From Mesorhizobium loti (lineage in GTDB: Bacteria > Pseudomonadota > Alphaproteobacteria > Rhizobiales > Rhizobiaceae): DNA of 64,000 nucleotides. The notes under the pieces were generated by a model. That model did not search any database. It was not told the DNA's origin and saw only the letters and a list, made by a program, of their open reading frames with translations. Each line of letters starts with the position of its first letter. The stretch's first letter is position 1. The position numbers and the translations under genes were made by a program. Of the stretch, positions 18,150 to 37,991 are shown one piece after another. The stretch covers positions 2,609,001 through 2,673,000 of the forward strand of contig CP050293.1 in assembly GCA_014189435.1 (NCBI GenBank), in the 5' to 3' direction.

Positions 18150-18976
18150 ACTCAAGGAGAAGAAGAGATGCTTTCAAGACGTCAGCTACTCGGCGCGGGA
18201 GCTCTGCTCGCCGGCGCCACGGCATGGACCAAGACCTCTGCGATGGGCTTGCCGGACGCCGCTGTCATGGAATCGCCGGACATGCATCCACCGATATTTC
18301 CGACGAGCGGCCCGGACTACCAGCCGGTGGTGACGCTCAACGGTTGGACGCTGCCCCACCGCATGAACAATGGTGTGAAGGAATTCCACCTCGTCGCCGA
18401 GGCGGTTGAGCGGGAGCTGGCGCCTGGCATGACCGCCTATCTCTGGGGTTATAACGGCCAGTCTCCCGGTCCCACCATCGAGGCGGTCGAGGGCGATCGG
18501 GTCCGCATCTTCGTGACCAACAAGCTACCCGAGCACACCACAGTGCACTGGCACGGCATGATCCTGCCCTCGGGCATGGACGGCGTGACCGGCCTAACCC
18601 AACCCGGCATCCCTCCCGGCAAGACGTTCGTCTACGAGTTCGATCTCGTGAAGAGCGGCACCTTCATGTACCACCCGCACGCCGACGAGATGGTGCAGAT
18701 GGCCATGGGTATGATGGGCTTCTTCGTTATCCATCCGAAGGACCCGAAGTTCATGCGGGTGGACCGCGACTTCGTATTTCTGCTGAACGCCTACGACATC
18801 GAGCCCGGATCGTACGTTCCGAAAATCATGACCATGACTGATTTCAACCTGTGGTGTTGGAACAGTCGCCTGTTCCCCGGCATCAGCCACCTTGTCGTGT
18901 CCAAGAACGACAAAGTGCGGGTCCGGGTCGGCAACCTGACCATGACCAATCATCCGATCCACATGCATGGCTACGA

Positions 18977-18984
18977 TTTCGAAG
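18977..18984. repeat. Target-site duplication, left copy (TTTCGAAG)
   Basis: The 8-base word at 18977-18984 is repeated at 21515-21522 on the other side of the IS66 element. Removing the element and one copy restores the oxidase frame (GYDFE followed by VTCTDGGW). Confidence 0.95.
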
Positions 18985-19061
18985 GTAAGCGCGTAGGCAT
19001 CCCCACGTAGCGTGCAGGCGGTTGATCGCTCATTTTCAGCATGAATCATGCGGAGAATCCT

Positions 19062-19448
19062 ATGAGCGACAGTATGAGCCATCATCGAACATTCGAGATT
19101 TTGACGGCGGAGCCTGTGCCGTCCCGACGCAAGCCGCGCCATCGGTCGGACGAAGAGAAGGCACGGCTTGTCGCCGAAGCGTTCTCGCCAGGGGGCAATG
19201 TCTCGGCGGTTGCGCGTTCCGAGGGGCTGGACCCCTCGCAGCTCTATGCGTGGCGCCGCAAGGCGCTTTCGTCGGGCATGGTTGCGCCACTGACGGAGGG
19301 AGCGAGCAAGCCGGCGAAGTTCACGCGCTTTGAAGCGGTGGGCAGCGACACGGTGGAAATCGTCATTGGCGACGCAGTGGTGCGCGCCGGCGGCGATGTC
19401 GATCCCGATCGCCTGGCGAGGATCATCCGCGCGGTTCGTAAGGCATGA
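19062..19448 (+). CDS. tnpA: IS66 accessory protein TnpA
   Basis: The 128-residue product has the HTH of IS66 OrfA/TnpA (RHRSDEEKARLVAEAFSPGG, NVSAVARSEGLDPSQLYAWR). The ATG at 19062 is preferred because GGAG precedes it; an ATG at 19041 is in frame. The gene overlaps tnpB by four bases (ATGA), which implies translational coupling. It probably helps recognise the IS ends. Confidence 0.9.
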   Translation: MSDSMSHHRTFEILTAEPVPSRRKPRHRSDEEKARLVAEAFSPGGNVSAVARSEGLDPSQLYAWRRKALSSGMVAPLTEGASKPAKFTRFEAVGSDTVEIVIGDAVVRAGGDVDPDRLARIIRAVRKA

Positions 19449-19789
19449 TCGCTTCCGGTGTGGTGGTTTACGTGTCGTGCCAGCCGGTCGACTTCCGCAA
19501 GGGCGCGGCATCTTTGATGGCGCTGGTCAGGGATGGCGGCCTGGACCCATTCTCGGGGGCACTTCACGTATTCCGTTCGAAGCGTGCGGACCGGGTTCGC
19601 ATCGTGTGGTGGGACGGCAGCGGGGTTTGTCTTTATTCGAAGACTCTGGAAGATCACAGCTTCTGCTGGCCGGGGATATCGGCCGCGCGCATGCGTCTCG
19701 ACCACGCCCAGTTGATGGCGCTTCTGGCCGGACTGGACTGGAAAAAGATTCGTCCGGCCAGGGTCAGGCGGCCGTTATCGACGGGCTGA
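19445..19789 (+). CDS. tnpB: IS66 accessory protein TnpB
   Basis: The 114-residue product carries the classic IS66 Orf2 signature PVDFRKGAASLMALV, with VFRSKRADRVRIVWWDGSGV and GLDWKKIRPARVRRP. It is required together with TnpC for transposition in the family. Its start overlaps tnpA, and 76 bases separate it from tnpC. Confidence 0.95.
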   Translation: MIASGVVVYVSCQPVDFRKGAASLMALVRDGGLDPFSGALHVFRSKRADRVRIVWWDGSGVCLYSKTLEDHSFCWPGISAARMRLDHAQLMALLAGLDWKKIRPARVRRPLSTG

Positions 19790-19865
19790 AACCGGCCTGC
19801 GGCAAGATGAATCATGCGGCTGGAACGGTTGGGAAAGCGGCTGTTTTTGTGCTCTGTTGCTTGCC

Positions 19866-21506
19866 ATGGTTCTACCGGGTCTTGCCCTTCCCGACGACGT
19901 TGATGCGCTGAAGGCGATGATCCTTTCCATGGCTCGCGAGCAGGCTGCAAGCGAGGCCCGGATCGCAGTCGCCGACGCTCGGATCGCAGCATCTGAGGCG
20001 GAGGTCGCCCGGCTGAAAGCTGTCGAGAAAAGCGCCAGCGAGCGGATCGCCAATCTCACGTCAATCCTGAAAGTTTTACAGCGCACGCAACATGGCACGC
20101 GTTCCGAGCGGCTACGCCTGGCCATCGACGACGAGCAGGCCTCCTTTGCCTTCGAAGAGGTCGAGACCGGCCTTTCGGAAATCCGGAGCGAACTCGACCG
20201 CGCGGTCGGGAACAAGCCGAAGCGCGCCCCGCGTCCGCGCAAGGGCTTTGCTGCCCACCTCGAACGCATCGAGGAGGTCGTCGAGCCGGAAATCCCGGCC
20301 GACTGCGAGGGGCTTGAAAAGGTTCTGATCGGCGAGGATCGATCCGAGCGGCTGGACGTCGTGCCGCCGAAGTTCCAGGTCATCGTCACGCGCCGTCCCA
20401 AATACGCCTTCCGGGGCCGTGACGGCGTGGTCCAGGCTCTGGCGCCGGCGCACATCATCGAAAGCGGCCTGCCGACGGAGCGGCTGCTCGCCTATATCGC
20501 CGTCTCCAAATACGCCGACGGCCTCCCGCTTTATCGGCAGGAGGCGATCTATCTGCGCGACGGCGTCGAGATCAGCCGGTCGTTGATGGCGCAATGGATG
20601 GGGCATCTGGGCTTCGAGCTGCAGATGCTTGCTGATTACATACTGGAGCGCATCAAGGAGGGCGAAAGGGTCTTCGCCGACGAGACGACCTTGCCCACCC
20701 TTGCCCCTGGTTCCGGGAAAACCACGAAAGCCTGGTTGTGGGCCTACGCACGGGATGACCGACCCTATGGCGGAACCAGTCCGCCAATGGTTGCCTATCG
20801 TTTTGAAGACAGCAGAGGTGCGGATTGCGTGGCGCGCCACCTCGCCGGATTCAGCGGTATCCTGCAAGTGGATGGCTACTCGGCCTATACCAACCTGGTC
20901 AAGGCACGGGCCAAAGCCGGCAGCAATGAAACAATCCGGCTCGCCGGGTGCTGGGCTCACCTGCGGCGCAAATTCTACGACCTGCACATCAGCGGGGTCT
21001 CGCAGGCCGCGACGGATTCGATCATCGCCATGACCGAATTGTGGAAGGTCGAGGACGAGGTTCGCGGCAAGGATGCCGGAAGCCGCGCCGCGCTGCGTCA
21101 GGAAAAGTCCGTGGCCATTGTCGCGAGCCTCTTCGATCTATGGGAAGCGGAACTGGGCAAGGTCTCCGGAAAATCCAAGACCGCCGAGGCGATCCGCTAC
21201 GCGCTCACCCGGCGGGAGGCGCTGGAACGCTTTCTGATGGACGGTCGCATCGAAATCGACTCCAATATCGTCGAGCGTGCAATCAGGCCCCAGACGATCA
21301 CGCGAAAGAATAGTCTATTCGCCGGCAGCCACGGCGGTGGACGAACCTGGGCGACGGTAGCCACCTTGCTGCAAACCTGCAAAATGAACAGCGTCGATCC
21401 GCTCGACTGGCTCTCGCAGACCTTGACCCGCATCGCTCAAGGCTGGCCGGCATCCGAAATCGAAATGCTCATGCCTTGGAACTTTAGGCCTGACGTTATC
21501 GGCTGA
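19866..21506 (+). CDS. tnpC: IS66 transposase TnpC
   Basis: The 546-residue DDE transposase has an N-terminal leucine-zipper-like coiled coil (residues 5-60). It also has the TnpC zinc-binding-type region, the core with VFADETTLPTLAPGSGKTTK and LQVDGYSAYTNL, and the C-terminal ERAIRPQTITRKNSLFAGSH. The frame is complete, so the element may still be mobile. The ATG at 19866 is used; an upstream TTG at 19857 would add three residues. Confidence 0.95.
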   Translation: MVLPGLALPDDVDALKAMILSMAREQAASEARIAVADARIAASEAEVARLKAVEKSASERIANLTSILKVLQRTQHGTRSERLRLAIDDEQASFAFEEVETGLSEIRSELDRAVGNKPKRAPRPRKGFAAHLERIEEVVEPEIPADCEGLEKVLIGEDRSERLDVVPPKFQVIVTRRPKYAFRGRDGVVQALAPAHIIESGLPTERLLAYIAVSKYADGLPLYRQEAIYLRDGVEISRSLMAQWMGHLGFELQMLADYILERIKEGERVFADETTLPTLAPGSGKTTKAWLWAYARDDRPYGGTSPPMVAYRFEDSRGADCVARHLAGFSGILQVDGYSAYTNLVKARAKAGSNETIRLAGCWAHLRRKFYDLHISGVSQAATDSIIAMTELWKVEDEVRGKDAGSRAALRQEKSVAIVASLFDLWEAELGKVSGKSKTAEAIRYALTRREALERFLMDGRIEIDSNIVERAIRPQTITRKNSLFAGSHGGGRTWATVATLLQTCKMNSVDPLDWLSQTLTRIAQGWPASEIEMLMPWNFRPDVIG

Positions 21507-21514
21507 CCGCTTAC

Positions 21515-21522
21515 TTTCGAAG
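21515..21522. repeat. Target-site duplication, right copy (TTTCGAAG)
   Basis: This is an exact repeat of 18977-18984, directly adjoining the right terminal repeat of the IS66 element. Confidence 0.95.
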
Positions 21523-22107
21523 TGACCTGCACCGACGGGGGTTGGACACGTCCTGAGGCTCGCTGGCCGGAAGTATCGATCGACATTCCGGTCGGCGCGA
21601 TGCGGGCCTACGAGTTCGATGCCAAGTACTTGGGCGACTGGGCGATCCACTGCCACAAGTCGCATCACACAATGAACGCCATGGGCCATGACGTGCCTAC
21701 GTTTATCGGTGTCGACAACTCGAAGGTCACCGACAAGATCCGACGCGTTCTGCCGGATTACATGGCGATGGGAGACAAGGGCATGGCCGACATGGGCGAG
21801 ATGGAAATGCCACTTCCCGACAACACGATTCCGATGATGACCGGTTGGGGTCAGTTCGGCGCTATCGAAATGGGAAGCATGTTCTCGGTCGTGAAGGTGC
21901 GCGAGGGCCTGTCCGCGAACGATTACGCCGATCCCGGATGGTACAGACATCCGGAAGGAACCGTGGCCTACGAGTGGACCGGCGATGTTCCAGCCCCCAC
22001 CAAGTCAGGCGACGCAAAAACGATGGTCCCGGCAGAGCACGGCGGTCACGGAAAACAGGGATGAGAAACCGAAACCCCTCAACCTCAACAATGAGAGAAT
22101 GTGCAGC

Positions 22108-25914: not shown

Positions 25915-26859
25915 CTACCGCCGCAACGGGGTCAAGCGAGCTAGGTCGTTTCGGATTGCAACGGCAGCGACACCTCCTTGTCCCATGGCATAGGACAGCT
26001 GATCGAGCCCGCGCACCACGTCGCCCGCCGCATATAGACCCGCTACCGAGGTTCTCTGGTGGTTATCGACGATAAGACATCCGTCGCGCGATACTTCGGC
26101 GTCCATCCCAGCCGCAAGTTCCGAACAGATATGGGATCCTAACGCTGGATAGACCGTTGCGAACGAGCGGCGGCCAGTCGGTGTCGCTATCGCGATGCCA
26201 TCCTGCATCAGTTCAAAATCGAGACATGGACCGTCAACTGTTTGAATGGCGCCGTTCTTGAGACGCGATCTTTGCGCTGCGTCGAGCTCATGATTGCCCG
26301 TCGGTGCAATCAAAGTCACATCAGCGGTGTAACTGCGCAAGAACTCCGCTTCGTTCGTTCCGTGTTCGCCGGTTCCGATGACCGCGACCGCACTATCGGT
26401 CACCTCATAACCATCGCAAATCGGACAATAACGCAATAATCCACGCGCCAGAGCCTCATCGTGGACATCGGCAGGCATGCTCGGTCTCAGGTTGAAGACG
26501 CCTGTTGCCATCAGCACGGTGCGCGCTTGAAACACCCCTTCCATTGCGTGGGCCGTAAACATGCCGGGCCCTCCCTGCAAGGAGAGCACCTTTCCAGCCC
26601 AATGGCGTGCCCCATAACGTTTTCCTTGTTCCCGCATGCGCGTGAGAAGCTCGGATCCCGCGATCCCATCGGGAAAACCTGCAAGGTTGCGGGTGAGCGG
26701 AATCAGATCAGCCCGGCTCTCACCACTGTCGGCCACCAGGACCGAGAGATGGAAGCGAGCAAGGTATATGGCCGCCGTCAATCCGGCCGGTCCTCCTCCA
26801 ACAATCAGACAATCAAGCAGCTCGGCCGCGTTGGCTGGCACGCCGGGGATTGGGGGCAT
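25915..26859 (-). CDS. TrxB-like NAD(P)/FAD-dependent oxidoreductase
   Basis: The 314-residue flavoprotein has an FAD site ([20 protein letters not shown]), an active-site-like CPICD at about residue 147 in the position of the thioredoxin reductase CxxC, a second nucleotide fold ([16 protein letters not shown]), and [18 protein letters not shown] at the end. It may reduce a thioredoxin or thiol protein, or act as a mercuric-type reductase relative. It lies 22 bases after the end of the copper oxidase fusion, on the same strand, so a linked role in thiol or copper redox is plausible. Confidence 0.88.
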
Positions 26860-26881: not shown

Positions 26882-29479
26882 CTAATTGACATCGATGACC
26901 ATTGTGAGCCCGCCGCCGCCCTTCTCTTCAACATTGTTGTTCGTCGTGTGATGCGGGATGTGGCAATGCAGCAGCCACTTGCCTGGCCGAAGCGCCCGCC
27001 ACAGGACGTCGAACCTCTGCCCAGGCCCGACATTGACGGTGTCGGCCGTATACCGGGCGTTTTGGGGCAGCGTCGCGCCGTCGATGGCGGCGACCTGGAA
27101 CGGCCCGCCGTGAATATGCATCGGATGGATGGCGGTGGTGTTGGATCCCACGAAACGGATCTTGAGCAACTGACCCACCTTCATGCTGATCGTGTCCGTC
27201 GCGGGGTAAGACTTGCCGTTGATGGTGAAGAAGTTAGGAAAGCCGCCGTCCATCGGCATGGACGGAAAGGTCAGCCCTTCCCGTTTCAGCCATTCCTGGA
27301 GTTGAACGGTGTATTCCAGGTCGGCGGTGATTGCGTCAGCCGGATTCTTCGGGTCGATGATCAGCGCGCCATAGAGGCCGAGCGCCTGCTGACGGTCGAC
27401 ATGATCATGGGTGTGATAGAAATATGTGCCGTACTGCTCGACCGTGTATTCGTAGGAAAAGGTTTCGCCGGGCTCGATCGGCTTTTGTGTGACATAGGCC
27501 GGGCCATCCATCGCATTGGGCACATCGAGGCCATGCCAGTGCACGGTCGTGCTTTCGGGCAGCCGGTTGGTGACGTTGATGCGAACGCGGTCGCCCTGGG
27601 TAACGCGCAGCGTCGGACCGGGAACCTGCTTGTTGTAGGCAAAGGCCTCGACCGTCACTCCGGGCAGAATCGACCATTGGATAACCGAAGCCTCGAGATC
27701 GAATACCTTAACGCCGTTCTCGATTCGCGGTTCGAGGACCACGCCTCCCTGAGCTGCGGGATCAGCCTTGAAACTCACCAGCCGCGGATCGACCGCCGCC
27801 ATATCGCGCATGGCAGCGGCCGGCGTATCGCGATCCATGATCATGCCGGGGGGCATAATGGCTCCGCCGACATCGCGCGCAGACAGGCTCATATTAATCC
27901 AGTTCGCAGGTGCGATCATGCCGATCGCAAGCGCCAGCAGGGACACCACCCCAAGGGCAGTGATCTGTGGCGTCGTGGCGTCCGTCTCCATTTGGTGGCC
28001 GCCGCTCTTTTTGCCCGTGTGGGAGGCCATGTCATGGCCTTGCGGAGCATGATCGCCAGCGTCAGCATGATGCATTTGCATCTGCGCGTGTTGGCCCTTG
28101 GCGGGTTGAGCCTGTGCTGGATGAGAAGCACCATGGTCGTGCTGCCGCATTCCGACACCATGCCCGAAAACCATCTCGCCGCCGTGCCAGCCGGTGTAGC
28201 CAAGCAGCACAACGACGGCTGTCGACATCATCAGCCCCCACGGCAATACGGCATCTGCCGGACCAAGGGAAAGGCGCACGGCCACGCTGATTGCCGCGAT
28301 GGCCAGCAGGATGAGGTTGCCGACGAGATGATAGCGGGCGTGATAGAGCTTGCGAATTGGCGGACTGCCGAGGAAATCCGTCAAGCCGGCGACGGCGGCG
28401 GCGAGGCCGCCCACCAATCCCGCCGCGATGAGCCAAATGGAGGCGGTCGCCCAGAAAGGATTGCCATTGATCCAGAAAACCAGATCGGAGAGAAGTCCTC
28501 CGACGAACAACCCGATCGGCAGGGGAACCAGCATCGGATGAATGGGATGGCGGCCGATCGTAGCCACGACGGGAAATTCAGGGCGGCCCTGCAACTGCTC
28601 TCCAGTGTTGCCGCCGTGATCATGAGAATGATCTTCCGTCACCTCTGCCGGTGCCTTCGCCTGTGCTGATGCCTTCGCCTGTGCAAGTGCCCTTGCTTTC
28701 GCCGGTGCTTTCGCAGGCGCGGTCTTCCCGGTATGTCCGGCATGGCCTTCTTCCGCCATGTCGGATGCCCCGCCGTGCGCGTGCTTTTTCTCCTGACCGG
28801 GTTCGGCGGTTTGCGGGCGCTGCGTCATCAGCCCATGCTTCAGCTTGCGTGCGACCAGCCAGACATTGGCAGGGTAGGCGAGTGCAAAGCCGGCAATGAC
28901 GCCGATCGACATCACGCCCCAGAACAGAAGCTCCGTCGGCTCCATCGCGCGCATGTCGCGACCCATCATCAGGAAGCTCATGACCGGGGCCATGCCGGCC
29001 ATCATGAAATTCATTGAGATGAACTCGGGCAGGAAGCTCTTGCGCACGTTCTCCCAATAGGTGCCGCCCATCATCGATTTCATGAAAAGTGACTGGAAGA
29101 TGAAAAGCCCGAAGGCGAAGCCGGCCAGATATTCGACGATGAGATCAAGCCACATCGGCAGGCCGAGCGACGCGGTGATCACGGCGGCAAGAATGATGCC
29201 GGTCGCATCGCCGGCGACGCAATGAATCGTTGAGCCGACGCCCTGCTTCCAGAGCGACTTGGTGAAGGCCTCATGCCCGCCTGGGCGCGGCTCCTTGTCG
29301 GCAAGCACGTAGAGCAGCAGTCCGATCGGACCCATATAGAGGGTCACCAGGATAAACCCCCATTTCATCACCACTGGTTCGGGGTTGTTACGGTATTGAT
29401 CGAAGCCGACATAGAGCGTCGAGGCGGCGGCAATTGCGAACCAGGCGACGAGAAAATAGTCGATTGGTTGGATAAGCAT
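26882..29479 (-). CDS. DUF4396-DUF2231-multicopper oxidase triple fusion
   Basis: The protein has 865 residues. Residues 1-215 are a DUF4396 membrane domain (QGVGSTIHCVAGDATGIILA). A His/Ala/Lys-rich linker (KAPAKARALAQAKASAQAKA) runs to about 300. A DUF2231 membrane domain follows at 305-445 (HPIHPMLVPLPIGLF, DFLGSPPIRKLYH). A second linker, rich in His and Met, spans 445-500, then a single helix near 507-525. Residues 560-865 form a cupredoxin-type oxidase with HWHG (647-650), HTHDH (689-693), HPMHIH (785-790) and HCHIPHH (838-844). The position five after the last His appears to be Asn rather than Met. It probably tethers a periplasmic oxidase to the membrane. Confidence 0.85.
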   Translation of the reverse strand: MLIQPIDYFLVAWFAIAAASTLYVGFDQYRNNPEPVVMKWGFILVTLYMGPIGLLLYVLADKEPRPGGHEAFTKSLWKQGVGSTIHCVAGDATGIILAAVITASLGLPMWLDLIVEYLAGFAFGLFIFQSLFMKSMMGGTYWENVRKSFLPEFISMNFMMAGMAPVMSFLMMGRDMRAMEPTELLFWGVMSIGVIAGFALAYPANVWLVARKLKHGLMTQRPQTAEPGQEKKHAHGGASDMAEEGHAGHTGKTAPAKAPAKARALAQAKASAQAKAPAEVTEDHSHDHGGNTGEQLQGRPEFPVVATIGRHPIHPMLVPLPIGLFVGGLLSDLVFWINGNPFWATASIWLIAAGLVGGLAAAVAGLTDFLGSPPIRKLYHARYHLVGNLILLAIAAISVAVRLSLGPADAVLPWGLMMSTAVVVLLGYTGWHGGEMVFGHGVGMRQHDHGASHPAQAQPAKGQHAQMQMHHADAGDHAPQGHDMASHTGKKSGGHQMETDATTPQITALGVVSLLALAIGMIAPANWINMSLSARDVGGAIMPPGMIMDRDTPAAAMRDMAAVDPRLVSFKADPAAQGGVVLEPRIENGVKVFDLEASVIQWSILPGVTVEAFAYNKQVPGPTLRVTQGDRVRINVTNRLPESTTVHWHGLDVPNAMDGPAYVTQKPIEPGETFSYEYTVEQYGTYFYHTHDHVDRQQALGLYGALIIDPKNPADAITADLEYTVQLQEWLKREGLTFPSMPMDGGFPNFFTINGKSYPATDTISMKVGQLLKIRFVGSNTTAIHPMHIHGGPFQVAAIDGATLPQNARYTADTVNVGPGQRFDVLWRALRPGKWLLHCHIPHHTTNNNVEEKGGGGLTMVIDVN

Positions 29480-29589: not shown

Positions 29590-29793
29590 TCAGGCCGCCA
29601 ATTTCTCGTTGTCGTAGCCGGCAGACTTGATGACGTCGCGGATAGCGGTTTCGTCCGCCTTGGTTTCCACGGCGACCATCGATGATCCGAGGTCGACTAT
29701 GACCTTAGCTGCAGGATCGACACTTTTTACGGCCTTTTCGATCGTGCTGGCACAATGACCGCAGCTCATATCCGGAACTTTCAATTTCAACAT
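29590..29793 (-). CDS. copZ: Copper chaperone CopZ (HMA domain)
   Basis: The 67-residue single heavy-metal-associated domain carries the Cu(I) motif MSCGHC (Cys11 and Cys14). It carries copper in the cytoplasm to the N-terminal domains of CopA. AGGAG precedes the ATG. It is read away from copA, and each has its own MerR/CueR-type promoter in the 190-base gap. Confidence 0.92.
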   Translation of the reverse strand: MLKLKVPDMSCGHCASTIEKAVKSVDPAAKVIVDLGSSMVAVETKADETAIRDVIKSAGYDNEKLAA

Positions 29794-29822: not shown

Positions 29823-29853
29823 GTTATGGGGCTTCCCATCGTTGGAAGGTCAA
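29823..29853 (-). promoter_or_regulatory. CueR-type promoter for copZ
   Basis: On the minus strand TTGACC and CATAAC are separated by 19 bases. The spacer begins TTCCAACGATGGGAAG, an inverted-repeat centre. A 19-base spacer that is too long for sigma-70 alone is the hallmark of MerR-family activation, here probably by CueR with Cu(I). Confidence 0.8.
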
Positions 29854-29917
29854 GGGCCTATTTTTTCGTCGATGTAATCGTCGCGGTTGCGTTGGAGTGC
29901 TGATCGTATTTTTCCCC

Positions 29918-29948
29918 TTGACCTTCCAATCGTGGGAACCTTTATATG
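29918..29948 (+). promoter_or_regulatory. CueR-type promoter for copA
   Basis: TTGACC (29918-29923) and TATATG (29943-29948) are separated by exactly 19 bases. The spacer TTCCAATCGTGGGAACC is a near-palindrome, almost the same as in the divergent copZ promoter. The cueR gene at 32593 very likely encodes the activator. Confidence 0.85.
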
Positions 29949-29982: not shown

Positions 29983-32517
29983 ATGAACGCCGTTACCCCG
30001 CACACGCCAGTCGAACCCGTTTCGGTTCCTGGTTCCAAAATTCAGATCGGCATTGATGGCATGACGTGCGCTTCGTGTGTGCGACGCGTCGAAAAGGCCA
30101 TCGCCTCCGCGCCGGGCGTCGTCGGGACATCGGTCAATCTGGCGACCGAACGTGCCGAGGTGACTTTCTCCGGCAAGCCGGACCTTGCTCCCGTTATCGC
30201 TGCAGTGTCGGCCGTTGGCTACGAGACGCGCGCAGATACGATTGAACTCGCCATCGAAGGGATGACCTGCGCCTCCTGCGTGGCGCGCATCGAAAAGGCG
30301 CTGAAGGCTGTGCCGGGCGTAACCGAGGCCAGCGTCAATCTGGCAACGGAGCGTGCCACCGTCCGCATCATCGCGGGCACCATCGAGGCCGCCGCGCTCG
30401 AGGGGGCGGTGGCGGCAGCCGGCTACGAAGCGCGGCAGATCTTGCCGGACGCAGACAAGGACCGTGAGCGCGACGGGCGCGAAGCCGAGATTCGAACGCT
30501 GGGTCGTTTGCTTGCGTTGGCTGCGCTTTTGACGCTGCCGGTGTTCATACTCGAAATGGGCGCCCATCTTATGCCAGCCTTCCATCACTGGGTGATGATG
30601 ACGCTCGGCGACTGGAACTGGCGATTGCAATTCGTCCTGACCACGATTGTTCTGTTTGGCCCCGGCCTGCGTTTCTTTAAGAAGGGAATGCCGGCGCTGC
30701 TCAGGGGCGCGCCAGACATGAACGCGCTGGTGGCGCTTGGGTCGGGTGCTGCCTGGACCTACTCGCTCGTCGCGACTTTCATCCCCAATGTCCTGCCGGC
30801 AGGCACTGCCAACGTCTATTACGAAGCGGCAGCCGTGATCGTGACGTTGATCCTGCTCGGCCGCTATCTCGAAGCGCGGGCCAAAGGCCGGACCAGCGAG
30901 GCGATCAAGAAACTCGTCGGGCTGCAGCCCAAGACTGCGCGCCTCGTCAAGAACGGCGTCACGGTCGAGGTGCCGCTCGCCGAGGTGCGGGTTGGTGACG
31001 TAGTGGTGATCCGCCCGGGCGAAAAGATCGCGGTCGACGGCGAGATCGTCGAGGGATCATCCTTCGTCGACGAGTCCATGATGACCGGCGAACCGCTGCC
31101 TGTCGCCAAGGGTATCGGCTCAGAAGTGGTCGGCGGCACCATTAACAAGACCGGCAGTTTTTCCTTCCGTGCCACAAAGGTCGGCTCGGCAACGCTGCTC
31201 GCCCAGATCATCCGCATGGTCGAAGCTGCGCAAGGCTCGAAGCTGCCGATCCAGGCGCTGGTCGACAAGGTGACCGCCTGGTTCGTGCCGGCCGTCATCG
31301 CGGCCGCCTTGCTCACCTTCGGCGCCTGGCTTGTGCTGGGTCCGCAGCCGGCCCTGTCTTTCGCCCTGGTCAACGCCGTTGCCGTTCTGATCATTGCCTG
31401 CCCTTGCGCCATGGGCCTTGCTACGCCGACCTCGATCATGGTCGGTACGGGCCGCGCGGCCGAACTGGGCGTGCTCTTCCGCAAGGGCGAGGCGCTGCAG
31501 ACTCTGCGTGATGCTACGGTCATTGCCCTCGACAAGACCGGAACGCTCACCGAGGGCCGGCCCGAACTGACCGATTTCGTCGTGACTGACGGTTTTGTCG
31601 AAGCCGACGTTCTCCGGCTCGTAAGCTCCGTAGAGGCCCGGTCCGAGCACCCAGTCGCGGATGCGATCGTGCGGGCGGCCGAACGGCGCGGGCTTGTGCT
31701 TGTCGATGTCGAGAATTTCGAGGCCATTCCTGGCTACGGGGCGAGAGCTGTCGTCGAAAGGTACAAGATCGAGGTCGGTGCTGATCGCTTGATGATCAAT
31801 CTCGGCCTGGACATCTCGACCTTTGCTTCGGCGTCAGCGCGCCTTGCCGACGAGGGTAAGACCCCACTCTATGCTGCCATTGATGGCAGGCTTGCGGCGA
31901 TCGTCGCCGTTGCCGATCCGATCAAGGCATCGACGCCCGCAGCTATAGCGGCGCTGCATGCGCTTGGTCTTCGGGTCGCCATGGTAACCGGTGACAACCG
32001 CCGTACGGCGGAGGCGATCGGGCGGCGTATCGGCATCGACGAAATCGTCGCCGAGGTGCTGCCGGACGGCAAGGTCGAGGCCGTCAAACGGCTTGCCGCC
32101 TACGGCGCTCGCGTTGCCTTCGTCGGCGACGGCATAAACGATGCGCCAGCACTTGCGGCGGCGGATGTCGGCATAGCGATCGGCACTGGCACGGACATCG
32201 CCATCGAGAGCGCCGATGTTGTTCTGATGTCAGGCGATCTCCGCGGTGTCGCGAACGCGATCGCGCTCTCCAAGGCGACGATCCGCAACATTGGCCAGAA
32301 CCTGTTCTGGGCCTTTGCCTACAACATCGCGCTCATCCCGGTCGCCGCTGGCGTGCTCTATCCGCTGAACGGCACGCTCCTGTCGCCGATGTTGGCGGCG
32401 GGCGCCATGGCGCTGTCCAGCGTCTTCGTTCTGACCAATGCCTTGCGTCTCAGGCGCTTCCGAGCGCCGATCGACGACAGGGTACAGGCCAGCCATTTTT
32501 CGGTGCAGGTCGTATGA
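29983..32517 (+). CDS. copA: Cu(I)-exporting P1B-type ATPase CopA
   Basis: This 844-residue inner-membrane pump uses ATP to export Cu(I). Two N-terminal HMA domains each have GMTCASC (the first at 26-32). The transmembrane CPC site is at 473-475. The catalytic DKTGT begins at Asp517, with TGEPLPV (actuator), [10 protein letters not shown] (HP motif) and [16 protein letters not shown]. The last helix has [14 protein letters not shown], as in P1B-1 Cu(I) pumps. The ATG at 29983 is preferred; the frame runs further up through the promoter. It is read away from copZ and followed by cueR at 32593. Confidence 0.97.
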
Positions 32518-32592
32518 TAGAATTGATGCCGATGCGTTTTGCCCCAAGCTCCGGATCTGATGTCGCCGGGACTGCCAGCCTGGAATGCAATC

Positions 32593-33057
32593 ATGAACAT
32601 AGGTGAAGCTGCCGCGGAATCAGGCGTCTCGGCCAAGATGATCCGCTACTATGAGTCGATCGGACTCATCTCGAACGCTACCCGCACCGACGCTGGCTAC
32701 CGGGTCTATTCCGGCGACGACGTTCATACGCTCGGCTTCATCCGCCGGGCGCGTGATCTTGGCTTTTCGGTCGACCAGATGACCGATCTGCTTGCTCTAT
32801 GGAGCGATCGCTCGCGGGCGAGCGCCGATGTCAAGCGGATTGCGATGGAACATGTCGCCGAACTCGAGCGGAAAATGCGCGAACTCCGCGATATGTCAAA
32901 GACGCTGCGGCATCTGGCGGAGCACTGCCAGGGGGATGGTCGGCCGCACTGCCCGATCATCGAGAACCTTTCCAGCGGTCACGAGGCCGGACCAGCCAGG
33001 TCGTCCAAGCGCCCGAAGCTCGGCGGCGAGATCGCCAGGCAACGGCAGGCTTTCTGA
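32593..33057 (+). CDS. cueR: Copper-responsive MerR-family regulator CueR
   Basis: The 154-residue regulator has a MerR winged HTH (MNIGEAAAESGVSAKMIRYY, ESIGLI), a long dimer helix and the metal loop with Cys112 and Cys120 (EHCQGDGRPHCPII). That spacing and numbering match the Cu(I)/Ag(I)-sensing CueR branch. An extra basic tail of about 30 residues follows. It lies 75 bases after copA and should act on the paired promoters between copZ and copA. Confidence 0.95.
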   Translation: MNIGEAAAESGVSAKMIRYYESIGLISNATRTDAGYRVYSGDDVHTLGFIRRARDLGFSVDQMTDLLALWSDRSRASADVKRIAMEHVAELERKMRELRDMSKTLRHLAEHCQGDGRPHCPIIENLSSGHEAGPARSSKRPKLGGEIARQRQAF

Positions 33058-33106: not shown

Positions 33107-34612
33107 ATGCATCGACGCGCTTTTCTGGCGGCAGGTCTTGTGACGGTTTTTGCGAGCCCGCGCGCCATCGCTCAAATGAAGATGGATGACATGCCCGGCA
33201 TGGATATGGGCGGTCACGCAGGTCACGATATGGCCGCAGCGCCGCAAGGCGCGGCCGTGCTGCGTGAAGGAGAAACACTTCGCGACTTGCCTCGCCTCGC
33301 CAACGATGCCCGCACCCCCGGCCTGTTCAGGGGGAAGCTGACGGCAGAGTCCGCCACGGTGCGTTTTGCGGAAGGGCTGGATACGCCCATCCTTGGCTAC
33401 AACGGCCTGAGTCCAGGGCCATTGATCGAAGCGACCGAGGGCGACCGCGTCGAGATCACATTCGCGAACCGAATTCCTGAAGAGACGAGCACCATCCATT
33501 GGCATGGCATGCCCGTTCCGTCTGACCAGGACGGCAATCCGATGGACCCCGTCGCAACCGGCGCCGACCGCACCTACAGCTTCGAACTGCCCGAAGGAAG
33601 CGCGGGTTCATACTGGTACCATCCGCATCCGCACGGCAAGACGGCCGAGCAAGTCTATCGTGGTCTTGCCGGCGCATTCGTGGTCAAGCCGAAGGTCGAT
33701 CCGATCCCGGCCGCCTATGGCGATACCGTGCTGGTGTTTACCGACCTTCGCCTCGCCGCCGATGGCACCATGCCGGACAACACGATGGTCGACCTGATGA
33801 ACGGACGCGTCGGCGATCATGTACTTGTCAACGGACAGAAGAATCCTCAGGTAACGGTGCCCTTTGGCACGAAGCGGCGCTTCCGGCTCTACAACGCGAC
33901 AAACGCACGTTTCCTTCGACTGTCGTTTGAAGCGTCAATGACAGTTATCGGAACGGACGGTGGTCTGCTGGAGACCCCGATCACAGTCGACGAGATCCTT
34001 CTCAGTCCCGCGGAACGCCTTGAACTGATCGTATCATTCGACAAGCCCGGCCCCGCCACGCTGTACACGCTCGACTACGATCGCGGCTGGATGGGCGCAG
34101 GCCGGCCTGCCGATGCAGGCCTGACACTGCTGACGGTCAATGTTTCGGAGACGCCGGCCGAGCCGGTTCCGCCGCTGCCGGACCGGCTGCGGCCGATCTC
34201 GCGGATCGGTGCCCCCGCCGTCAACCGTCGCTTCGTGTTCACCGAAACCATGGCCATGAACGCCAGCGGCATGGAGATGGGGTTCCTGATCAACGGCGCC
34301 GCCTTTGACATGGGCCGCATCGATGTCGTCTCGAAAACAGGACAAGTCGAGCTCTGGGAAATTGTCAACAAGGCTGACATGGACCATCCGTTCCACGTCC
34401 ACGGGACGCAGTTTCAGGTGGTCGACCATGAGCGCGACGGCCAGGTTTCGAAACCGGCCTACCTGGCCTGGAAAGACACCGTCAACGTCGCGCGCGGCGA
34501 GACGGTGCGGCTCTTGCTGCGCCAGGACCGGCCGGGGCCACGCATGTATCACTGCCACATCCTGGAGCATGAGCAGCTCGGCATGATGGGCATTGTCGAC
34601 GTGCAGGCATAG
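33107..34612 (+). CDS. CueO-like periplasmic multicopper oxidase
   Basis: The 501-residue protein has a signal peptide (MHRRAFLAAGLVTVFASPRA) and a Met/His-rich start of the mature protein (MKMDDMPGMDMGGHAGHDMA), likely for weak copper binding. All four copper motifs are present: HWHG, WYHPHPHGK, HPFHVHG and the terminal HCHILEHEQLGMM (first His at 482). It is probably a cuprous oxidase that detoxifies Cu(I). A ribosome site TAGGAGA lies six bases before the ATG. It follows cueR by 49 bases and probably belongs to the same transcript. Confidence 0.93.
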   Translation: MHRRAFLAAGLVTVFASPRAIAQMKMDDMPGMDMGGHAGHDMAAAPQGAAVLREGETLRDLPRLANDARTPGLFRGKLTAESATVRFAEGLDTPILGYNGLSPGPLIEATEGDRVEITFANRIPEETSTIHWHGMPVPSDQDGNPMDPVATGADRTYSFELPEGSAGSYWYHPHPHGKTAEQVYRGLAGAFVVKPKVDPIPAAYGDTVLVFTDLRLAADGTMPDNTMVDLMNGRVGDHVLVNGQKNPQVTVPFGTKRRFRLYNATNARFLRLSFEASMTVIGTDGGLLETPITVDEILLSPAERLELIVSFDKPGPATLYTLDYDRGWMGAGRPADAGLTLLTVNVSETPAEPVPPLPDRLRPISRIGAPAVNRRFVFTETMAMNASGMEMGFLINGAAFDMGRIDVVSKTGQVELWEIVNKADMDHPFHVHGTQFQVVDHERDGQVSKPAYLAWKDTVNVARGETVRLLLRQDRPGPRMYHCHILEHEQLGMMGIVDVQA

Positions 34613-34618
34613 GCCGAG

Positions 34619-35053
34619 GTGGCGGCGCTCTATAGCGCGCTGTTCGTCAGCGCGTTCCTCGCCGCAACCATCCTGCCGGTCTCATCGGAAGTGGTGCTCG
34701 CCGGCCTGATCGTCTCGGGTCGCGGCGATCCGGCGCTGCTCCTTGCGGTCGCCACGCTCGGTAACACGCTCGGCTCCGTGGTGAACTGGATTCTGGGGCG
34801 TGGCATCGACTCGCTCCAGACCAGGCGCTGGTTTCCTGTAACTCCCGAGCGCTATGAGCAGGCCAGCCGGACGTTCCGACGCTTTGGCGAATGGACTCTG
34901 CTGTTTGCCTGGCTGCCGGTTTTCGGAGATGCTTTCACCATTGCGGCAGGCGCGGCACGCGTGAATCTCGGCGTGTTCGTTGCTCTCGTCGCATTGGGCA
35001 AGGCGGCGCGGTACGCGGTTGTCATTGCCGGAGGATTATGGGCGATCGGGTGA
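34619..35053 (+). CDS. YqaA-like small membrane protein (VTT/DedA-related)
   Basis: The 144-residue protein, probably started by GTG, has about four hydrophobic segments (ALFVSAFLAATILPVSSEVV, LAVATLGNTLGSVVNWILGR, LLFAWLPVFGDAFTIAAGAA). This layout and the E-V-V-L-AG and P-x-x-G-D motifs fit the YqaA branch of VTT-domain proteins. It starts six bases after the CueO-like gene, so it is co-transcribed. Role is unknown; transport or lipid scrambling is possible. Its end overlaps the convergent cytochrome gene by 18 bases. Confidence 0.78.
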   Translation: MAALYSALFVSAFLAATILPVSSEVVLAGLIVSGRGDPALLLAVATLGNTLGSVVNWILGRGIDSLQTRRWFPVTPERYEQASRTFRRFGEWTLLFAWLPVFGDAFTIAAGAARVNLGVFVALVALGKAARYAVVIAGGLWAIG

Positions 35054-35632
35054 GCAGCCGGCTTCATCGCCGACCGCAAGCTGCGCGTCCTCTTCCCGCG
35101 AAGCGATGTCCAGCCGCCCAAAGAACATGGTGCGCATGACACCATCGCGAAGCACCAGGAAATGCACAAGCGCAGCCAGGATGTGAACGCCGATAAATCC
35201 AAGCATGATCCAGACCAGTTTTGCATGGATGAACGCGAAAGCTCTTGCCGACAGTCCGCCGACGGATGGCGCCAACGGCACATGCAGGTTTCCGAAAAGC
35301 CGTGCGGGAGGCATGAAAGGCATTGGCCGGTAGCCGAGCCATCCCGTTATCAGGACGGCAAGGATCATGACGTAGAGAAACACGTGAAAGAAAGCGGTCG
35401 CAAACCGCACGGAGCGTGTGGTGTGCTTGACAGGGGGCTGGGTGAAGATGCGCCAGCAAAGCCTGAGGACAATGATGGCAAGGATCGTCACGCCGATCGA
35501 CATGTGGAGCGGAAGCCAGTTCATCGTCGCCATCCCCGGCCCGTTCATCGGTCCGAAGGCAATGGCGATTTGCGCCGCGAGCGCGATCACGGTCAGCCAA
35601 TGCAGCAGACGAATGCCGAAATGCCATCGCAT
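35036..35632 (-). CDS. Cytochrome b561-family membrane protein
   Basis: The 198-residue protein has four transmembrane helices with His residues that can hold two b-type hemes (RWHFGIRLLHWLTVIALAAQ, LPLHMSIGVTILAI, RFATAFFHVFLYVMILAVLI, IMLGFIGVHILAALVHFL). It is an inner-membrane electron carrier, probably from quinol to a periplasmic acceptor. The ATG at 35632 is chosen since the longer frame upstream is the antisense of the YdcF-like gene. Its closeness to the copper oxidases suggests an electron-transfer link, which is inference. Confidence 0.88.
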   Translation of the reverse strand: MRWHFGIRLLHWLTVIALAAQIAIAFGPMNGPGMATMNWLPLHMSIGVTILAIIVLRLCWRIFTQPPVKHTTRSVRFATAFFHVFLYVMILAVLITGWLGYRPMPFMPPARLFGNLHVPLAPSVGGLSARAFAFIHAKLVWIMLGFIGVHILAALVHFLVLRDGVMRTMFFGRLDIASREEDAQLAVGDEAGCSPDRP

Positions 35633-35692
35633 GCGAGGACTCTCTCTCACCTCTGAGGCCCGCGGGTTATCAAATTCGCGCGTGAGGGCGTG

Positions 35693-36502
35693 ATGTTTTT
35701 CGTCATCTCCAAGCTCATCGAGTTTTTCCTGCTCCCTTCCAATCTTGTCGCGCTCCTCGGCCTGATCGGCATTCTTGCCGTGCTCCTCGGCAGATCTCGC
35801 CTGGGACGGGGGTGCATCATAGCGTCGGTTCTCTTGCTCGCCATCTGCGGTTGGAGCCCTCTGGGACCGGCTGCGTTGATGGTGCTGGAGAACCGCTTCC
35901 CCCAACCGGTTATCGATGGGCCCGTCACCGGCATCATCCTGCTTGGTGGAGCCGTCGACACCCATATCAGCAGCGACCGCGACACCTTGGCGATGAATGA
36001 GGCGGGAGAACGGCTGACGGCGACTGTCGATCTCAGCAGGCGCTATCCGGATGCCAGAATTTTTCTCTCCGGAGGGTCAGGTCATATTCACGGCGCCAGT
36101 ACACTGACGGAATCCCAGGTCGCTCGCGATATCTTGGTGTCGCTCGGCGTGTCGCCGCAGCGCATCGAGATGGAGGAACGATCGCGAAATACCTGCGAAA
36201 ACGGCAGGGAAAGCGCCGCCTCGGTTCGACCCAAGCCAGGCGAGATCTGGCTTCTTGTGACATCCGCTAGCCACATGCCCAGGGCGATCGGATGTTTTCG
36301 GGCCGCAGGATTTGACGTGACCCCTTATCCGGTCGACTATCGAACGCGCGGCATAGCAGATCTCAAGCGCCCGACTGGTTCGATCGCCGTCGGTCTTGCT
36401 GCGACCGATCTCGCCGCGCATGAATGGTTCGGATTGCTGACCTACAGGATTGCCGGCATGACGGCTGAGGTATTTCCTTCGCCCTGGGCGGAGCGCTTGT
36501 GA
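35693..36502 (+). CDS. YdcF/ElyC-like DUF218 membrane protein
   Basis: The 269-residue protein has two N-terminal transmembrane helices, then a DUF218 domain (GIILLGGAVDTHISSDRDTL, ERLTATVDLSRRYPDARIFL, SGGSG, EERSRNTCENG, WLLVTSASHMPRAIGCFRAA). ElyC-type relatives work in envelope assembly and lipid-carrier use. It is divergent from the cytochrome gene. The ATG at 35693 has GAGGG upstream; a GTG directly before it is also possible. Confidence 0.85.
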   Translation: MFFVISKLIEFFLLPSNLVALLGLIGILAVLLGRSRLGRGCIIASVLLLAICGWSPLGPAALMVLENRFPQPVIDGPVTGIILLGGAVDTHISSDRDTLAMNEAGERLTATVDLSRRYPDARIFLSGGSGHIHGASTLTESQVARDILVSLGVSPQRIEMEERSRNTCENGRESAASVRPKPGEIWLLVTSASHMPRAIGCFRAAGFDVTPYPVDYRTRGIADLKRPTGSIAVGLAATDLAAHEWFGLLTYRIAGMTAEVFPSPWAERL

Positions 36503-36711: not shown

Positions 36712-37044
36712 CTAACCAGCCATCGTGCGGCAGGCTTCTGCGCATTGCCGGCAAGCGTCGACACACTCCTGCATGTCGCCGAGGCGCTCGCAATCATCCG
36801 CGCATTGGCCACAGATCTCCGCGCATTCACCGCAGACATGCTTATGATGCTTCGAGCCGAGCAGCATGAAATGCGCCGATGTTCGGCAGATCTCGGCGCA
36901 GGCCATCATCAAGGTGAAATGGTTCCTCTCGGTGTGCTTTCCGCCCATTTCCAGACAATGGCCCATCGCGGTCGAAAGGCATGTTGAATAGCAGCGCAAG
37001 CATTCCTCGATGCAGGCCCTCATTTTCGGGCTCAGTTGGTGCAT
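36712..37044 (-). CDS. Four-helix-bundle copper-binding (storage) protein
   Basis: The 110-residue protein has 16 cysteines arranged in helices as CxxxC-type pairs (CIEECLRCYSTCLSTAMGHC, CGECAEICGQCADDCERLGD, CVDACRQCAEACRTM). This is the plan of Csp-type/DUF326 proteins, where cysteines line the core of a four-helix bundle and bind many Cu(I). There is no signal peptide from the ATG at 37044 (AAGGAGAATTGCC upstream), so it is a cytoplasmic store. It lies 45 bases after the DUF305 gene, in the same direction. Confidence 0.92.
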   Translation of the reverse strand: MHQLSPKMRACIEECLRCYSTCLSTAMGHCLEMGGKHTERNHFTLMMACAEICRTSAHFMLLGSKHHKHVCGECAEICGQCADDCERLGDMQECVDACRQCAEACRTMAG

Positions 37045-37089
37045 GGCAATTCTCCTTTGAACGTAGGTATCCAATGCGGTCGCGCCTGA

Positions 37090-37506
37090 CTATTTTGCAT
37101 TGGTCTTGAGCCACTTTGTGTAGTCCTTGATTTCCTTCTTTTGAGCATCAATGACCATCTGCGCCTTTTTCTTAGCGTCGGCATTGTCGCCGTACTTAAG
37201 CTCGACTTCCGCCATATCGATCGCGCCCTGATGATGGGCGATCATCCCGCAGATGAAGGCCACGTCAGCATCCTTGGCCTTGATACCCTCCATCATGGCC
37301 GGGTCCATCTTCTCCATCGCCGTCATGTATGCCTGATGCGCGTCGTCCATGTCAGCCTTCGACATTTCCATTCCTGGCATAGGCGCCATCTGATCGGCCT
37401 GGCGGCATTGCTCGGGCAACGGGGATGCCATTTCCTGGCCAAGAGCGAGCGAACCTGCTCCGGCCAAAAACGTCGCGGTCGCAAGGGCGAGTTTGATATT
37501 GTTCAT
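37090..37506 (-). CDS. Secreted DUF305 protein
   Basis: The 138-residue product has a signal peptide ending LALG and a Met-rich segment (MAPMPGMEMSKADMDD). The DUF305 core FICGMIAHHQGAIDMAEVEL is present, with its His-His and Met residues. DUF305 proteins are ferritin-like, often periplasmic and linked to copper or other metals. TAGGAGAAATACC precedes the ATG at 37506. It is probably in an operon with the four-helix-bundle gene. Confidence 0.9.
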   Translation of the reverse strand: MNNIKLALATATFLAGAGSLALGQEMASPLPEQCRQADQMAPMPGMEMSKADMDDAHQAYMTAMEKMDPAMMEGIKAKDADVAFICGMIAHHQGAIDMAEVELKYGDNADAKKKAQMVIDAQKKEIKDYTKWLKTNAK

Positions 37507-37553
37507 GGTATTTCTCCTATCTCTTGAGTTGATCGCGGACTGCAGCGCGGCTG

Positions 37554-37991
37554 TTATCCAACGAGTGGGGCGAGCCGCCGGGCGTGGAAAACAGTCCGCT
37601 TTGGCGGTCGGTCTAGTCGACCCGTGACCTGAGACGGAGGAAGAGCGCTGGTGTCGCCAGCCCCGTCTGATCTTTGCTGACCAAAAGTTGGCGACAAGCC
37701 GCTCGGGGGAATGCCTGCCGTGCAGTGGAGAGATGCACAACAATTGGCGCCGCCAAAAATGTCTTGATGGCAATTGATGGCGGGATAGGCCTCAGACGCC
37801 TGGATGTGGGTTGTGACTAATCTGGTCTGCAACTGACCTGAACTGCCGGGCACGAAAACAGCGGCCGCAAACACCACCACAGTGATGCAAATTGCCATAA
37901 AGAGTGGGTGTATCTGCTGGAGCTTCGGCACGGTTGGCAAACGGGCAGTTGTCAGTTTGGTTCCCAGGGAAGGGCGGGGAAAGCCCAGCAA
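37554..37991 (-). CDS. Small secreted Cys-containing protein of the copper region
   Basis: The 145-residue frame is started by TTG at 37991, with GAGGAG four bases upstream. A hydrophobic signal (LFMAICITVVVFAAAVFVPG) is followed by NCHQDIFGGANCCASLHCTA and a Pro/Arg-rich tail (RLDRPPKRTVFHAR). The layout of signal, Cys cluster and basic tail resembles the proteins at 15963 and 51305. No named family is known. It lies 47 bases upstream of the DUF305 gene and probably leads this operon. Confidence 0.55.
   Translation of the reverse strand: MLGFPRPSLGTKLTTARLPTVPKLQQIHPLFMAICITVVVFAAAVFVPGSSGQLQTRLVTTHIQASEAYPAINCHQDIFGGANCCASLHCTAGIPPSGLSPTFGQQRSDGAGDTSALPPSQVTGRLDRPPKRTVFHARRLAPLVG

Follow-up and report, generated by a model that had tools for sequence, protein, structure and literature searches.

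Within a 64,000-nucleotide stretch of the Mesorhizobium loti contig CP050293.1 (positions 2,609,001 to 2,673,000 of the forward strand, assembly GCA_014189435.1; hereafter the window, in whose numbering coordinates are given), one gene on the minus strand (26882..29479) encodes, as read from its open frame and Pfam matches, a DUF4396 domain, a first linker, a DUF2231 domain, a second linker, an anchor helix and a two-domain multicopper oxidase (MCO). The reading that we favor, with a little more than even confidence, is that the product is a copper oxidase of the inner membrane, induced by copper and assembled from exchangeable parts. Copper detoxification is its likely function, and the role of each membrane domain is put forward as a hypothesis. 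The ordinary part of the gene is the DUF4396-MCO fusion; what is unusual is the DUF2231 plug-in, which is present in some genes, absent from close relatives and of two origins, together with the mosaic character of the two halves.

The frame runs unbroken from ATG to stop and encodes 865 amino acids (aa). Pfam placed DUF4396 (PF14342) at residues 77-214 with 137.2 bits against a gathering cut-off of 27, DUF2231 (PF09990) at residues 310-444 with 135.3 bits against 26.4, Cu-oxidase_3 at residues 600-712 with 138.5 bits, and Cu-oxidase_2 at residues 745-847 with 85.6 bits, the last overlapped by a PF00394 match. With both N-terminal domains found and every score far above its cut-off, the triple fusion proposed by the initial annotation stands. 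An assembly artefact or a frameshift, including a gene join near 28100 or 28700, was rejected because the frame is intact and open there and the same domain order is repeated in other genomes: it is intact in M. mediterraneum (L073) and a Devosia metagenome-assembled genome (MAG; L074), has a disrupted MCO part in Mesorhizobium LSHC420B00 (L079), and occurs as an independent fourth case in a Herminiimonas MAG (L075). A contig join is unlikely because the gene sits inside a 7.2-Mb contig of a three-contig genome. The fusion gene is single-copy in this genome, where the remaining matches are to the oxidase part; among the 60 matches listed to solved structures related by sequence, the MCO part alone was matched, best by 3g5w and 2zwn.

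The two membrane domains had been described as normally separate proteins, which holds for DUF2231 but not for DUF4396. The DUF4396-MCO fusion is common and widespread, and DUF2231 is the rare part, lying inside its His-rich linker. The double fusion is found in Proteobacteria, Actinomycetota, Deinococcus and others, and in plasmid records of Mesorhizobium, Variovorax, Deinococcus, Rhodanobacter and Leifsonia it is a single gene amid copper/heavy-metal genes. In the cyanobacteria Nostoc and Chroococcidiopsis, DUF4396 and the MCO are separate adjacent genes, and in Hymenobacter and Sphingomonas DUF4396 lies in copper/heavy-metal clusters with no MCO attached. Eight of the nine plasmid records that were opened (Mesorhizobium, Variovorax, Deinococcus, Rhodanobacter, Hymenobacter, Sphingomonas, Leifsonia and Chroococcidiopsis) have annotated copper/heavy-metal genes beside the fusion or a lone DUF4396; the ninth, from Nostoc, carries efflux and DUF305 genes and one annotated as 'copper oxidase'. 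When 72,556 plasmid records were searched at the protein level, many genes matched both ends of the fusion protein, those opened being without DUF2231, and no triple fusion was found, in that no place covered 80% of either query. Two side observations concern these relatives. The DUF4396 proteins of Hymenobacter (L204) and Sphingomonas (L205) have no MCO but retain a tail rich in His and Met and an additional hydrophobic stretch, and the Sinorhizobium meliloti plasmid matches H24-H33 are unannotated DUF4396-MCO sequences in two or three pieces that look like remnants, one with an ISRm3 transposase under the match.

A genome scan from which the best 80 of 203 relatives were kept showed DUF2231 within the gene at four loci (L073, L074, L075 and L079), as an adjacent gene at L097 and L139, and farther away at L086 and L104. 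Of 146 genomes of the genus, 45 have a match with an E value of 1e-110 or lower, and in three of these (G000, G806 and G828) the match contains DUF2231; G786 has fragments at contig ends only, from which the presence of DUF2231 cannot be judged. The ends of two G786 contigs, C35 (L185) and C39 (L183), each hold about the last 180 oxidase residues at 97-99% identity, perhaps an assembly-broken repeat. At the level of the order, 73 of 397 genomes (a sample that excludes G806 and G828) have a DUF2231 match, and the window's is the only one whose frame has the size of a triple fusion (875 aa, against 544 for the next longest). No confirmed relative of DUF2231 was found in viral contigs with the patterns used.

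The DUF4396 membrane part (residues 1-215; 28835..29479, minus strand) was delimited by Pfam, an AlphaFold2 model and conservation. The model, from 71 sequences, has a mean predicted local distance difference test score (pLDDT) of 87.3 and six long helical segments (residues 5-29, 36-49 with 51-60, 76-105, 109-137, 141-171 and 184-210). His86 is kept in all 71 sequences and Cys87 in 70. The fifth helix is rich in Met (Met156, 159, 160, 163, 167 and 171), and these six residues share one helix face, an arrangement equaled in tightness by 0.35% of random sets. Met156, 160, 163 and 171 are kept in 71 of 71 sequences, as are Met172 and Met176, with Met159 in 70 and Met167 in 69. Such a helix could suit Cu(I) handling, a concrete hypothesis for DUF4396 that the conservation of the Met series and of the His-Cys motif provides. 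In the PDB, no sequence relatives of DUF4396 were found up to E 10.

One alternative, which we regard as possible but clearly less probable, is that the membrane domains do no more than anchor a CueO-like oxidase and gather it into clusters, with neither DUF4396 nor DUF2231 moving copper or electrons. The MCO alone keeps the usual ligand set, closely related genes are without DUF2231, two cyanobacteria encode DUF4396 and the MCO separately, and no fold match points to transport, all of which an anchor would accommodate; however, an anchor would have no need of the invariant Met series and His86. The DUF4396 half is, moreover, better conserved than the MCO half, being the half closer to the window for 73 of 75 rows and having a mean commonest-residue share of 87% versus 79%, and the Hymenobacter and Sphingomonas copper clusters contain DUF4396 with no MCO attached to it.

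The linkers were defined by composition. Linker 1 (residues 220-304; 28568..28822, minus strand) has 7 His, 18 Ala, 7 Lys and 1 Met, and linker 2 (residues 449-505; 27965..28135, minus strand) has 9 His and 4 Met, so that their description as His-rich was correct; the linkers of the double fusions (n=73) have medians of 58 aa and 12.8% His, with at least 10% His in 57 of 73. The anchor helix (residues 506-524; 27908..27964, minus strand), recognized by hydropathy, is predicted to put the MCO in the periplasm, and the separate MCO of Nostoc starts with a similar helix. A simple reading of hydropathy and loop charge, with 13 Lys/Arg near helix ends on the proposed inside and 6 on the outside, predicts both linkers inside and the MCO outside. 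Because the helix numbers of DUF4396 (six) and DUF2231 (four) are both even, the side on which the MCO lies would be unchanged by DUF2231. The linkers had been proposed to bind copper; their direct service to a periplasmic oxidase is unlikely because they are predicted to lie on the cytoplasmic side.

The DUF2231 domain (residues 310-444 by Pfam; 28148..28552, minus strand) has four long helices in an AlphaFold2 model with a mean pLDDT of 87.8 from only 9 sequences. His residues near the starts of helices 1 and 3 are invariant (9 of 9) and are fully conserved in a 38-row alignment too. Foldseek returned CcmF and two CcmABCD chains C in its top three rows, with cytochrome bd and b561 lower. Two PDB sequence relatives, at E 0.73 and 1.8, are not credible, and a fold match to the copper transporter Ctr1 (6m97; E 0.84, root-mean-square deviation 19.6) was discarded as meaningless. 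Separate DUF2231 genes adjoin a sugar-dehydrogenase-like (GSDH-like) gene in 12 of 29 fetched loci (L020-L023, L026-L032 and L035), as does L203, which suggests a membrane redox partner. BLAST searches with 11 window proteins found copper genes near separate DUF2231 genes in 0 of 12 wider loci, and DUF2231 is therefore not itself a copper family; the separate copies near a DUF4396-MCO gene (L086, L097, L104 and L139) came with that gene and are no test of copper neighborhood. We considered a second alternative, that DUF2231 is a heme- or quinone-binding membrane module passing electrons between the membrane and a periplasmic enzyme, which would make the triple form an electron-linked oxidase. 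The GSDH-like neighbors, the invariant His residues, the Foldseek rows and the thioredoxin-reductase-like (TrxR-like) gene that follows the fusion are all in keeping with such a module, which we nevertheless hold to be rather unlikely.

The optional nature of DUF2231 is seen in genes with and without it. The M. norvegicum gene L076 lies in the same surroundings as the window gene, to which it has 98% identity over DUF4396 and 95% over the MCO. Their DNA aligns at 89.6% up to position 815 of the gene and resumes at position 1351 at 91.0%, and between these breakpoints the window gene has a DUF2231 cassette without counterpart in L076 (28130..28664, minus strand), whose 535 bp plus 2 bp of shared sequence make 537 bp (179 codons). 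For every one of the four intact triple fusions there is a relative without DUF2231, and three of these pairs are ∼90-97% identical in the flanking DNA: besides the window and L076, the cassette flanks of L073 and L106 agree at 95.7 and 96.6%, and those of L075 and L095 at 95.9 and 96.7%. For L074, the nearest row without the cassette is more distant (L138; 80% nucleotide identity in DUF4396 and 76% in the MCO). Because closely related genes do without it, DUF2231 would alter rather than create function, and the gene pairs of ∼90-97% identity constitute a natural experiment on its role. Repeats flank the cassette in L075 (44 nt, 77% alike) and L073 (25 nt, 80% alike), and the double forms L095 and L106 resemble, in translations compared by eye, single hybrid copies; for these reasons we favor deletion between repeats. 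Around the window's own cassette, no direct repeats of at least 12 nt were found.

In a tree of 38 DUF2231 sequences (41 were found and three duplicates dropped), the four rhizobial fused copies group with support of 89/87, which is not decisive, and the fused copy of Herminiimonas groups with an adjacent gene of Albitalea (100/100, on long branches). A single origin of all five fused DUF2231s was rejected by the tree and by the approximately unbiased (AU) test (p 1e-9). Two distinct DUF2231 lineages occupy the same linker, and we therefore conclude that there were at least two fusions. Within the rhizobial group, we prefer ancestral presence of DUF2231 followed by repeated loss, lateral regain being a less favored possibility. 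L073 and L079 show about as much synonymous divergence (dS) in DUF2231 (0.54) as in DUF4396 (0.47), which would be expected of a cassette that moved together with its gene; the triple-fusion backbones do not group in the tree of either half, which counts against simple descent. That the insert is a neutral passenger caught between linker repeats would suit its variable presence among close relatives and the repeats around it in L073 and L075, but we judge this very improbable given two distinct lineages at the same place and ratios of nonsynonymous to synonymous divergence (dN/dS) of 0.11-0.22 for fused copies over six pairs, rough values as dS exceeds 1 in five of the six.

The two halves of the gene were also compared in trees of 76 rows, consisting of the window and 75 of 81 loci; the six left out (L079, L112, L113, L121, L126 and L148) are without both complete halves in one frame. 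The DUF4396 half of the window groups with the common Mesorhizobium doubles, and its MCO half, together with those of L076-L078, lies beside another group that is mainly rhizobial. A common history of the two halves was rejected in tests that constrained either half to the grouping of the other (p 7.6e-7 and 2.7e-5, for groups chosen after seeing quick trees), and a single clade of the window with L076, L077 and L078 on the DUF4396 half was not rejected (p 0.21). Nineteen rows have 86-91% nucleotide identity to the window in DUF4396; in the MCO, 16 of these have 70.6-73.9% and three (L076-L078) 88-92%. Among 147 other pairs in the same DUF4396 range, a control that still contains pairs with L076-L078, MCO identity has a median of 84.1%, a 5th percentile of 70.9 and a minimum of 69.3, and since equally low identities occur there, the low window values are not unique. 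Judged from the trees, the window gene is a mosaic whose DUF4396 and MCO halves differ in phylogeny, and the linker is probably the joint at which halves were exchanged too.

In the oxidase, Pfam matches and motif counts identify a first cupredoxin domain (residues 600-712; 27344..27682, minus strand) with HWHG and HTH and no Cys at the place of the type 1 (T1) copper site, and a second (residues 745-847; 26939..27247, minus strand) with HPMHIHG, HCHIPHH and the sole T1 Cys, Cys839. The four motifs make up the usual copper-ligand His set, and the whole protein has two Cys only, Cys87 and Cys839. Over the 76 rows, window included, HCH of domain 2 is kept in 76, HWHG in 76 and HxxHxHG in 75; at the T1 place of domain 1 there is Ser in 36, Pro in 21 and Thr in 18 by pattern, with Ser by reading in the last row and Thr in the window. 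With two cupredoxin domains, no third in the 865 aa, and the T1 Cys confined to the C-terminal domain, the oxidase has the type B arrangement (T1 Cys in domain 2 of a two-domain MCO) as defined in excerpts of PMC13151041; by analogy with other type B enzymes it is probably a homotrimer. The initial annotation placed Asn at the position of the axial Met, and Asn does stand at Cys+10 (Asn849 in the window) in all 76 rows (74 found by pattern and 2 by eye), the position counted by the motif HCHxxxHxxxxM/L/F given in an excerpt of PMC7036934. All 76 rows likewise have a Leu (Leu858 in the window) that follows an 8-residue loop and precedes the last strand (again 74 by pattern and 2 by eye). The axial Met/Leu of other MCOs presumably sits at the residue leading into that strand, which here is the place of Leu858. 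Thus, the axial role of the Asn is doubtful: the T1 axial residue may be Asn849 by motif residue count or Leu858 by strand register. An alignment to 3g5w sets the GGGL stretch opposite GGI, but that domain of 3g5w has no T1 site. As a separate observation, L048 and L049 encode MCOs ∼51% identical to that of the window, with long N-terminal parts without a Pfam match at E 0.01, in stop-to-stop frames whose starts are unsure.

Two divergent CueR/HmrR-type boxes, each found by pattern with 2 mismatches and each consisting of TTGACC, a 19-bp spacer and a -10-like hexamer, lie upstream, one (29830..29853, minus strand) before a CopZ-like gene and the fusion and the other (29918..29941, plus strand) before a copper ATPase. 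Both predicted sites have a palindrome within a promoter with a 19-bp spacer, the signal and spacer rule stated for CueR/HmrR in excerpts of PMC1526738. The count over the whole window (6 sites with ≤3 mismatches versus 3.0 expected) proves nothing because 10 of 100 shuffles reach 6; position and 2-mismatch quality count instead. Boxes with ≤2 mismatches occur in 16 of 76 upstream regions of the family, compared with 0 of 760 single-base shuffles and 3 of 575 stretches drawn at random from the same loci.

The small copper-chaperone gene just upstream of the fusion (29590..29793, minus strand), which from the CxxC-type sequence of its translation we take to be CopZ-like, is likely in the same operon, as is the pyridine-nucleotide-disulphide (TrxR-like) oxidoreductase gene 22 bp downstream (25915..26859, minus strand; Pfam Pyr_redox_2), which has the same position in L076-L078; a copZ-fusion-TrxR operon is therefore likely. 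The divergent heavy-metal (copper-type) P-type ATPase (29983..32517, plus strand) has Pfam E1-E2_ATPase and two HMA domains, its start codon being chosen by reading within a listed open reading frame that begins at 29887, and is followed by a MerR-family regulator (32539..33057, plus strand; Pfam MerR), CueR/HmrR-like by position. Elsewhere in the window, an MCO gene at 18168-22061 appears to be split into a first part (18168-19007) and a C-terminal piece (21522-22061) with an IS66 transposase at 19857-21503, and is followed by cupredoxin and CusF. Two more MCO genes (33107-34612 and 49719-51197) each match three Cu-oxidase Pfam families, and genes for cytochrome b561, DUF326 and a protein that we assume to be DUF305-like lie at 35036-35965, 36712-37074 and 37090-37773.

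The earlier suggestion of a membrane-bound copper oxidase is supported, and the copper context, the CueR/HmrR-type promoter and a membrane helix that is rich in Met and could suit Cu(I) handling agree with it. In the mechanism that we propose, copper would induce expression through the CueR/HmrR-type promoter. In the six-helix DUF4396 part, the His-Cys motif and the Met residues that line the fifth helix would bind Cu(I), which would then be passed towards the periplasmic MCO. That enzyme, probably trimeric, would use O2 to oxidize Cu(I) to Cu(II). The cytoplasmic His-rich linkers might hold copper or merely act as flexible joints, and DUF2231 would be an optional module that adds four helices, leaves the MCO side unchanged and is perhaps a membrane redox module. 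A bolder version, to which we give little credence, is a single, probably trimeric polypeptide whose His-rich loops collect cytoplasmic Cu(I), whose Met-lined DUF4396 pore conducts it and which oxidizes it on emergence, the linker being a plug-in site where His/Met-rich repeats let modules such as DUF2231 be added, removed or swapped in frame, always in even helix numbers that would keep the oxidase on the outside.

Several points weigh against the copper-oxidase reading. A PDB fold search with DUF4396 gave no significant match and no row standing out, so that its fold gives transport no support, and the Met series is missing from the more distant DUF4396 of L057 and is thus not family-wide. 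Sixty of the 76 upstream regions are without a box at ≤2 mismatches, and of 80 loci searched by BLAST with the window proteins, only 23 had the ATPase gene nearby, 14 a CueR-like gene and 12 a CopZ-like gene, in flanks of up to 6 kb that were often shorter. To these are added the lack of copper genes by BLAST at the 12 separate DUF2231 loci, the roughness of the dN/dS values and the disrupted MCO part of L079, and a Pro in place of the T1 His of HPMHIHG in one of 76 rows (L105, a low-coverage contig). The literature searched held no experiment on any family member. Among 5.39 million open papers (subscription journals and preprints lay outside the scope) no description of the fusion was found, and the one match for DUF2231 was a database paper (PMC12828279); an excerpt of PMC7760498 mentions DUF4396 proteins in passing among the elements flanking a metal-resistance cluster.

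The copper-oxidase reading places two domains of unknown function in a testable setting, copper-induced oxidation at the inner membrane. It also suggests a route by which multidomain membrane enzymes could be re-assorted through flexible linkers with their topology undisturbed.

Compared with known systems, the window protein has the same DUF4396, His-rich linker, anchor helix and MCO as the double fusions (annotated as 'DUF4396 domain-containing protein' or 'multicopper oxidase domain-containing protein'), whose linker, unlike that of the window, is without DUF2231. Its DUF2231 shares the Pfam family and the four helices of the separate DUF2231 proteins of the order, which are small stand-alone proteins. 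With the periplasmic copper-resistance oxidases CueO and CopA (PcoA-type) it shares the copper context and presumed Cu(I) oxidation, whereas those are soluble three-domain enzymes, and the NCBIfam cut-offs were not reached (CueO, 105 versus 525 bits; copper_res_A, 157.1 versus 478.95 bits). The best solved matches, 3g5w and 2zwn, differ in having a T1-type HCH in domain 1 and HDH in domain 2, a pattern that we label type C. The type B MCOs, Streptomyces SLAC and Cellvibrio japonicus CjMCO (as described in excerpts of PMC13151041), share with the window protein the two cupredoxin domains, the C-terminal placement of the T1 Cys and the copper-ligand His motifs, and CjMCO likewise has a His-rich N-terminal stretch; in contrast to these enzymes, the window oxidase stands behind 11 predicted membrane helices and its loop after HCHxxxH is longer, Asn standing at the usual axial spacing.

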